A DNA stretch of 64,000 nt from Defluviitaleaceae bacterium (GTDB lineage: Bacteria > Bacillota > Clostridia > Lachnospirales > WQUN01). Positions 39,189 to 40,806 of the stretch are shown here, one piece after another; position 1 is the stretch's first letter; each line of letters opens with the position of its first letter. The notes below the pieces were generated by a model that saw only the letters and a program-made list of their open reading frames with translations, ran no database searches and was not told the DNA's origin. The stretch lies in assembly GCA_009780185.1 (NCBI GenBank), contig WRAN01000015.1:1-64000 (forward strand). The letters run 5' to 3'. Both the position numbers and the translations under genes were made by a program.

Positions 39189-39656
39189 TTGGACAGGGTA
39201 CCTTATAGGCGTGTGACACCGCCCCGTCATGAACGTGAAAACGAATATTCAACTTATCAGCAAGAAGAGGCAACCGAGGCTATATCTCGTGGCGAGACTT
39301 TGATTATGCAGTGTATCCTTAGCGGGATTGCTTTCGTGTTTGTGCTGGTGGCCGGGATGACCAATATCCCTCCGGCGGTGGTTCTGAGGGGAGGCATACA
39401 GCAGGTGCTTTCCGGATCTGAGACTCTGGACGAGCTGGTAGCGGATGTAAGGCGCTTTGGATCAGAATGGCTTGGATGGGAAGACGGTGTAGAGCCAGTG
39501 ACGGAAGAAGTTTTTGAAGAAGTAGTTACCGATGAAGATGTTTTTGAAAATGTTTTAGATGAAGATTTTTTTGAATATGAAGAAGAGCCGGTGGTGGATG
39601 AGGCATCAAACCCTACAGTCCCGGAGCCACCGGATACTCCGGGACTGTGGGATTAG
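39189..39656 (+). CDS. SpoIVFA-like protein, N-terminal part (membrane anchor and acidic linker)
   Basis: 155 residues from a TTG start preceded by GGAGGTGA at six bases. A basic N-terminus, one membrane helix (about 38-59) and a very acidic stretch (about 98-140) are seen. The next frame, overlapping at 39647-39656, holds a LytM/M23 domain, and then comes an M50 protease. That order (anchor, M23, M50) matches spoIVFA-spoIVFB, where SpoIVFA holds and controls the SpoIVFB protease in the outer forespore membrane. In Bacillus SpoIVFA is one 264-residue chain, so this gene appears split by a -1 shift, possibly programmed. Confidence 0.7.
   Translation: MDRVPYRRVTPPRHERENEYSTYQQEEATEAISRGETLIMQCILSGIAFVFVLVAGMTNIPPAVVLRGGIQQVLSGSETLDELVADVRRFGSEWLGWEDGVEPVTEEVFEEVVTDEDVFENVLDEDFFEYEEEPVVDEASNPTVPEPPDTPGLWD
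39608..39648 (+). promoter_or_regulatory. Candidate programmed -1 frameshift signal
   Basis: The heptamer A AAC CCT (39608-39614) lies in the correct phase (X XXY YYZ) of the upstream frame. It is followed at once by a perfect 12-bp GC-rich stem (39615-39626 with 39637-39648, 10-base loop). The -1 frame, open from 39602, leads straight into the M23 domain. The hairpin has no T-run, so it is not a terminator. The zero spacer is shorter than the usual 5-9 bases. Confidence 0.5.
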
Positions 39657-40129
39657 AGATATTTGAAGAAATACGTGGGGAAATATATGATGAGATACCG
39701 GAAGCACCTTTATGGATTAACCCCATAGAGGGGATAATAACCTCCCCTGGAGGACTTAGGTACAGCCCTGTAACAGGACGACGGGAGTTTCATGATGGGA
39801 TTGATATTGCGGCACCTGTAGGTACTCCTATTGTAGCACCAAGGGAAGGAACGGTGATGGCCGTTGGCACATCTCCTACTTTTGGTAAATTCCTTAGAAT
39901 GGCACATCCTGATGGGTATATTAGTTTTATGGCACATCTTCATCGCGTTATTGTAACCGTGGGGGACGAGGTGTATCAAGGGCAGAGAGTAGCTTATTCC
40001 GGCAATACCGGGCGGTCTACCGGGCCTCATTTGCATTATGGGTTGTTTCGATATGGGCAGTATGTTGATCCTGCCGGATATGTGGATTTGCCTGAGCGGG
40101 ATAATATTCTTGCGCCTTTGTCATGGTAG
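39647..40129 (+). CDS. M23 (LytM-like) domain, C-terminal part of the SpoIVFA-like protein
   Basis: 160 residues if read from the GTG at 39647. That GTG has no ribosome-binding site and lies in the 3' arm of a stable hairpin, so the part is more likely made by frameshifting from the upstream frame (about 313 residues in all). The M23 domain keeps zinc ligands: His49 and Asp53 in FHDGIDIA, and HLH (128-130) near the end. In Bacillus SpoIVFA this domain serves as a regulatory fold rather than an enzyme; here it might be active. It overlaps spoIVFB by seven bases. Confidence 0.8.
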   Translation: MGLEIFEEIRGEIYDEIPEAPLWINPIEGIITSPGGLRYSPVTGRREFHDGIDIAAPVGTPIVAPREGTVMAVGTSPTFGKFLRMAHPDGYISFMAHLHRVIVTVGDEVYQGQRVAYSGNTGRSTGPHLHYGLFRYGQYVDPAGYVDLPERDNILAPLSW

Positions 40130-40806
40130 CGTTTATTGTAGCGGCCGCTTCCATTTTAATTCATGAGTTGGCTCATATTGGGATGGTGAAGATAACCGGA
40201 GGCAAAGTGAATAAAGTCAAGCTAAGCTTGGTTGGCTTTAGTGCCTGGGTTCATAAAATCGACAAACATCGATATATGATATATCTGGCTGGGCCGCTGA
40301 TTAATGCTGCTATTGCTTTTGGCGCATTGACTTTAGGCCAGTCAGATATTTTTATTATTAATATTGTGCTTTGTGGGTTTAATCTTTTGCCTGTGTTTCC
40401 CCTTGATGGAGGACGGATAGCGCAGCTGTTTCTCGGAAATCGTATAGGGATTATTAGGGCTAACCGAGTTTTGATTAAAGTTGGGATAGTAGTTGGGGGC
40501 ATACTTATGGGGTTTGGGTTGGTGCAGGTGGTGCTTTACCCTTGGAATATGACCCTTTTATGTGCCGGGTTTTATATTCGGAAAAAGAATAAGGAGCTGC
40601 CTACTTACTTATACTGGGAATGTATACAAGCTCTCAAATCTAAGAAGGATTCATTGCCAAGAAAAAAAATAATCCTACCTCAGAATACTACCATTAATCA
40701 GGCAGTAGAATATCTGAGGTGGGATTATTTACTGGAAATATACATTGATAATAATCAATATATCTCTGAGAGGGAACTTTTAACAGATTCTAAGCTAAAA
40801 TTATGA
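40123..40806 (+). CDS. spoIVFB: M50 site-2 protease, SpoIVFB type
   Basis: An intramembrane zinc metalloprotease of 227 residues. HELAH (14-18) in the first helix and NLLPVFPLDGGR with Asp95 form the active site. Four to six membrane segments fill the first 150 residues, and a short CBS-like tail follows. In Bacillus SpoIVFB cuts pro-sigma-K in the mother cell at engulfment. The neighbouring anchor-M23 gene supports that name, but a general M50 role is possible since no sigK is in the window. The ATG overlaps the upstream stop. A terminator for the opposite strand is embedded in its 3' coding end. Confidence 0.85.
   Translation: MVAFIVAAASILIHELAHIGMVKITGGKVNKVKLSLVGFSAWVHKIDKHRYMIYLAGPLINAAIAFGALTLGQSDIFIINIVLCGFNLLPVFPLDGGRIAQLFLGNRIGIIRANRVLIKVGIVVGGILMGFGLVQVVLYPWNMTLLCAGFYIRKKNKELPTYLYWECIQALKSKKDSLPRKKIILPQNTTINQAVEYLRWDYLLEIYIDNNQYISERELLTDSKLKL
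40658..40731 (-). terminator. Terminator of the DUF3006 operon inside the spoIVFB coding end
   Basis: AATAATCCTACCTCAGA (from 40668) pairs with TCTGAGGTGGGATTATT (to 40730). The A-run just before it gives eight U for minus-strand transcripts. It is about 90 bases past the DUF3006 stop, within the last 150 coding bases of spoIVFB. Confidence 0.7.

Follow-up and report, generated by a model that had tools for sequence, protein, structure and literature searches.

How are a membrane anchor and a peptidase domain produced when they are encoded in two overlapping reading frames? The question is raised by a stretch of 64,000 nucleotides (hereafter the window; contig WRAN01000015.1, positions 1 to 64,000) from the genome of a Defluviitaleaceae bacterium. 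An initial annotation, made from sequence alone, proposed that a programmed -1 frameshift joins the two frames, and named an indel or assembly error as the main alternative. We find that programmed -1 frameshifting is by far the best explanation and very likely the correct one (probability about 0.87). It is favoured because the frame offset, the slip site and the RNA structure are conserved and both halves of the gene are under selection. The proposal is thus supported on the basis of conservation and selection; the slippage itself is inferred, without measurement of frameshifting or of protein.

Results

The split gene and its neighbours

The zero frame (39189-39656, forward strand, as are all features below) encodes a 155-residue membrane anchor with an acidic linker and a short tail, as indicated by the reading frames and by purifying selection. 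It opens with TTG, preceded by GGAGGTGA, and ends at a TAG at 39654-39656. The second frame (39602-40129) is -1 relative to the anchor frame and ends at a stop at 40127-40129. It encodes an M23 (LytM-type) domain in which the HxxxD, H and HxH motifs are all intact. Frames, motifs, selection and a scan for Shine-Dalgarno (SD)-like sequences define this half as an M23 domain lacking an SD-like start; the GTG at 39647, a possible start for the frame, has no such sequence. Fusion across both frames gives 313 residues. Directly downstream lies the gene for a SpoIVFB-like M50 protease (40123-40806), whose start overlaps the M23 stop, likewise without an SD-like sequence; the overlap reads ATGGTAG at 40123-40129. 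The host genome carries spo0A and spoIVB, and so belongs to a spore-forming lineage.

On recheck, everything that the initial annotation had placed here held: the frames, heptamer, 12-bp stem, TAG, GTG and 313-residue fusion, together with the absence of a ribosome-binding site at the GTG. It had missed an upstream pairing arm (39588-39595) and the overlap of the spoIVFB start with the M23 stop.

Conservation within the family

Thirteen genomes of the family share the -1 offset, the slip region and the hairpin, each in a matching position. All three genomes of the genus are among them, and the other ten are L017, L018, L020, L022 and L024-L029. Recurrence at one place in related genomes puts the arrangement far beyond chance. 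In the other two genomes of the genus the end of the zero frame (...SNPTVPEPPxTPGLWD and the stop) is kept, and the linker before it has diverged. Three members of the same family (L019, L021 and L023) carry the gene as one continuous frame, showing the fused anchor-M23 layout directly. When these genomes are scanned with a covariance model of the element, strong sites appear in every one of the 13 split genomes and in none of the three continuous ones. Comparison with close relatives, which had been suggested as a check on the frameshift, thus gave the outcome that the model predicts: split and signal are kept together, and relatives with a continuous frame have lost the whole element. All of these family genomes are drafts in many contigs.

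Each split genome has one true covariance-model site, always in the split gene, which rules out a mobile repeat or REP-like palindrome. Weaker matches are the palindrome read on the opposite strand or chance; one genome with such a match (G019) has no M23 gene. No Rfam family matched the element near threshold.

Both halves of the gene are under purifying selection. Within the family, the M23 frame has a pN/pS of 0.16-0.26 and the anchor one of 0.38-0.54, with synonymous sites near saturation.

Two more distant M23 genes of the family are also split, one with the signal A_AAA_AAA TAA (-1; L030, genome G013) and one with TTT TAG (+1; L031, genome G003).

The proposed slip site and the surrounding RNA structure

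The slippery heptamer A_AAC_CCT (39608-39614) is in phase with the zero frame. Overlaps between the frames in different species bound it closely: in the window (L014) and in L022 the second frame opens just 5-6 nt upstream of the heptamer, and in L018 the zero frame stops right behind it (AAC CCA TAG). If the mechanism is shared, these limits leave the heptamer as the only place for the slip. Of the 13 split family members, 8 carry A_AAC_CCN, and L028 carries C_CCA_AAG, which outperformed all other heptamers measured in E. coli (PMC4066793). Two observations on the heptamer count against the frameshift reading. The heptamer is imperfect in four members (A_AAT_CCA in L017, A_AAA_TCC in L026, and also L027 and L029), and A_AAC_CCT itself lies outside the group of most efficient bacterial heptamers (PMC4066793), a caveat that the initial annotation had also raised.

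Sequence, covariation and fold prediction support a hairpin, S2, with its 5' arm at 39615-39626 and its 3' arm at 39637-39648. In the window it is a perfect 12-bp stem that closes a loop of 10 nt, and fold prediction lengthens it to 15 pairs; the region 39568-39690 is predicted to fold at -39.2 kcal/mol (z -3.3), and none of 200 shuffled sequences was equally stable. The 13 split elements align without gaps from the CCN codon to the 3' arm, and the S2 core is paired in 95.6% of cells of this alignment. The absence of a spacer between heptamer and stem had been noted as a weakness. This objection loses force, since in most relatives the lower stem of S2 is interrupted and the invariant upper stem starts about 5 nt past the heptamer.

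Covariation also reveals a second helix, S1. Its 5' arm (CCGGTGGT, 39588-39595) lies 12 nt 5' of the heptamer and pairs with GCCACCGG (39626-39633) inside the S2 loop. Across the family the upstream arm sits 10-15 nt 5' of the heptamer (19 in L029), and the helix is 7-10 bp long in 11 of 13 elements, 6 bp in L029 and not clearly present in L028. Both sides have changed in 6 of 8 pairs, as in the relatives with CTGACGGC/GCCGTCAG, CCAACGGC/GCCGTTGG and ATGACGTCC/GGACGTCAT. Pairing of each arm with its own partner exceeded all 20000 permutations of partners (0/20000 as high), and the number of cells with changes on both sides was matched in 0 of 500 shuffles, though several alignment rows are out of register. 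By this covariation, S1 and S2 together make up an H-type pseudoknot whose loop 1 contains the slippery site.

In seven members (L017, L018, L020, L022, L024, L025 and L026) an extra small hairpin, seen by eye, follows right after the region of the zero-frame stop (for example AGCCGA-ATAC-TCGGCT); it may be a third component of the signal.

Split genes across the Lachnospirales

Regions from many families of the order Lachnospirales show the split gene. After removal of duplicates there were 76 split loci, 52 of the -1 type and 24 of the +1 type. Because loci were taken from hit lists (within the order, mostly those with short open frames; in the outgroup, those with frames of 145-354 aa), the counts should not be read as unbiased frequencies. 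Hits in the large family f5 were mainly longer M23 proteins and stand outside the counts, with one looked at (L202). L198, L199, L202 and L204 turned out to encode other M23 proteins and do not form part of the set. The gene is a continuous frame in 19 outgroup loci from other Clostridia.

The signals fit the direction of their shift. In the -1 class an in-phase X_XXY_YYZ lies near the end of the overlap in 32 of 50 loci, against 10.1 expected, and strong slippery motifs number 17 against 3.6, with expectations taken from equal windows of the same genes. Downstream structure in this class has a mean z of -1.19, compared with -0.29 for control stretches; it was looked for in the +1 class and is absent there. 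The +1 class, chiefly family f17 (Anaerotignaceae), has CCC TAG in 23 of 24 loci, the exception being the TTT TAG of L031; in 17 of the 24 the motif is closely preceded by an SD-like sequence (often GGAG, as in prfB).

On a tree of the M23 domains the three states (-1, +1 and single frame) require at least ten changes; +1 arose several times, and the single frame returned inside split groups. The tree was built on few columns and its details are uncertain.

Among the +1 relatives in f17 (L144-L153 and L049-L051) the stop after CCC is always TAG. Levels of release factor 1 might therefore control this +1 shift, in contrast to prfB, which uses TGA and release factor 2. Six loci of family f24 (L156, L161, L167, L168, L203 and L207) share a conserved TTGGGGGAG at the overlap, which fits either role, that of an SD-like sequence or that of a G-rich slip site.

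Discussion

We propose one gene in two frames. Ribosomes would begin with the membrane anchor; on reaching A_AAC_CCT some of them would slip back by one base, as the downstream hairpin or pseudoknot resists unwinding, and go on into the M23 frame. Two products are predicted: the 155-residue anchor, ending in a short tail, and a protein of 313 residues in which anchor and linker are followed by the M23 peptidase domain, which would lie outside the membrane. The purpose is likely to be setting the ratio of bare anchor to M23-bearing anchor, an inference, as are the slippage and its efficiency.

The best surviving alternative is that two proteins are made: translation stops at the TAG and restarts at the GTG at 39647, and stop-restart coupling yields the M23 domain alone. 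Room for this exists in the family, where 10 of 13 members have a GTG, or in L028 an ATG, that overlaps the stop, and coupling and frameshifting can reportedly co-occur in the same gene clusters (PMC3711429). However, the overlapping start is missing in L026, L027 and L029, an SD-like sequence precedes any candidate start in only 7 of 76 split loci, a free M23 product would have no membrane anchor, and continuous orthologs exist. Moreover, 27 of the 76 loci have no ATG, GTG or TTG before the conserved M23 core, which rules out restart as the general route. We consider this alternative unlikely for the window.

Less probable still is that the frames are joined by transcriptional slippage rather than by the ribosome. 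Runs of 7-9 A do occur at the site in L170, L194, L195, L196 and L200. The window site, however, is AAACCC, with no run above three; its structure shows covariation of the kind expected for a ribosomal stimulator; and the +1 class, with CCC TAG and an SD-like sequence, has the layout of prfB. We regard this explanation as very unlikely.

An indel, assembly error or decaying gene is all but excluded by relatives and by selection: although the window belongs to a draft genome (84.5% completeness, 31 contigs), the identical offset recurs in independent genomes of many families, some of them single-contig, the complete genome of Chakrabartyella piscis carries the +1 type, both frames are under purifying selection and the active-site motifs are intact.

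What, then, would the frameshift regulate? The initial annotation suggested a SpoIVFA-like regulator of SpoIVFB. Provided the frames are joined, the hydrophobic segment and the M23 domain do give an anchor plus extracytoplasmic LytM layout, so that the suggested arrangement of anchor, acidic linker and LytM domain holds. Like B. subtilis SpoIVFA, which joins BofA and SpoIVFB in an inhibitory complex (PMC9042235), the gene lies directly before spoIVFB and encodes one membrane anchor and a C-terminal LytM/M23 domain. In contrast to SpoIVFA, it occupies two frames, and its N-terminal part is matched by no profile. SpoIVFA also has a degenerate peptidase site (PMC3533761), whereas no such inactive site is found here; HxxxD, H and HxH are invariant in the M23 domains compared, and among solved structures the nearest relatives are M23 peptidases, ShyA for example. 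Clostridial proteins at the SpoIVFA position have been treated as non-orthologous replacements (PMC3533761).

The spoIVFB start also overlaps the M23 stop (ATGA) in seven other split family members, six of which, like the window, lack an SD-like sequence there. With such a start, coupling would reach spoIVFB only from shifted ribosomes, and it is possible that SpoIVFB synthesis in the window's family is tied to the frameshift in this way, although this is inferred. No spoIVFB was found directly downstream of the split gene and element in L016, of the same genus, nor of the split gene in part of f17 and in f24. Because these lineages keep the split without an adjacent spoIVFB, the anchor/M23 ratio is more likely the conserved purpose. 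The proposed role as regulator of SpoIVFB is therefore only partly upheld, as an option and not as a general function.

The signal resembles those of dnaX and the IS3/IS911 type, with an X_XXY_YYZ heptamer, a downstream hairpin or pseudoknot and two products with a common N-terminus. It differs in belonging to a gene family new for such signals and in changing type between relatives. In canonical -1 signals the slippery site precedes the whole structure, whereas here it lies in the first loop of the pseudoknot, with an S1 arm upstream. The +1 relatives share with prfB a P-site codon followed by a stop and, usually, an SD-like sequence a few bases upstream; unlike in prfB, the stop is TAG, read by release factor 1, the gene is unrelated, and the window itself is of the -1 type.

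Known upstream duplexes, which attenuate -1 and stimulate +1 shifting (PMC3639245, PMC6321510), likewise place an RNA duplex arm just 5' of the slip site, near the mRNA exit, but here the arm forms no hairpin of its own and pairs instead with the loop of the downstream stimulator. By analogy, S1 may be a brake and not a stimulator. In most relatives 29-33 nt separate its two arms (36 nt in L029), roughly the footprint of one ribosome, a suggestive coincidence for which there are no experimental data. A bolder and tentative reading is that the pseudoknot is a ribosome-sized clasp. With the heptamer in the P and A sites, the S1 arms would perhaps lie just outside the mRNA exit and entry; S1 would open ahead of an arriving ribosome and may close again behind it or around it, which might let ribosome traffic or a sporulation factor tune the shift. 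Such a clasp, if real, would act in a gene that switches among -1, +1 and unsplit versions. A covarying helix with one arm on either side of the slip site is in any case of interest for ribosome biophysics.

We found no report of this gene with frameshifting in the open-licence literature searched. The main text of a survey of reading-frame transitions (PMC3711429) mentions neither M23 peptidases nor sporulation, and an earlier listing in its supplements is not excluded. With slippage inferred, the gene thus probably represents apparently unreported programmed control of a cell-wall or sporulation protein. Few conserved bacterial frameshift genes are known outside mobile elements. Annotation pipelines are likely to call two genes or a pseudogene, so that a candidate regulator of sporulation or the cell wall is overlooked. 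Many families of one order have retained this gene even as its signal switched between -1, +1 and none, which makes it possible to test what selection keeps: the ratio of the two products, or merely their fusion.
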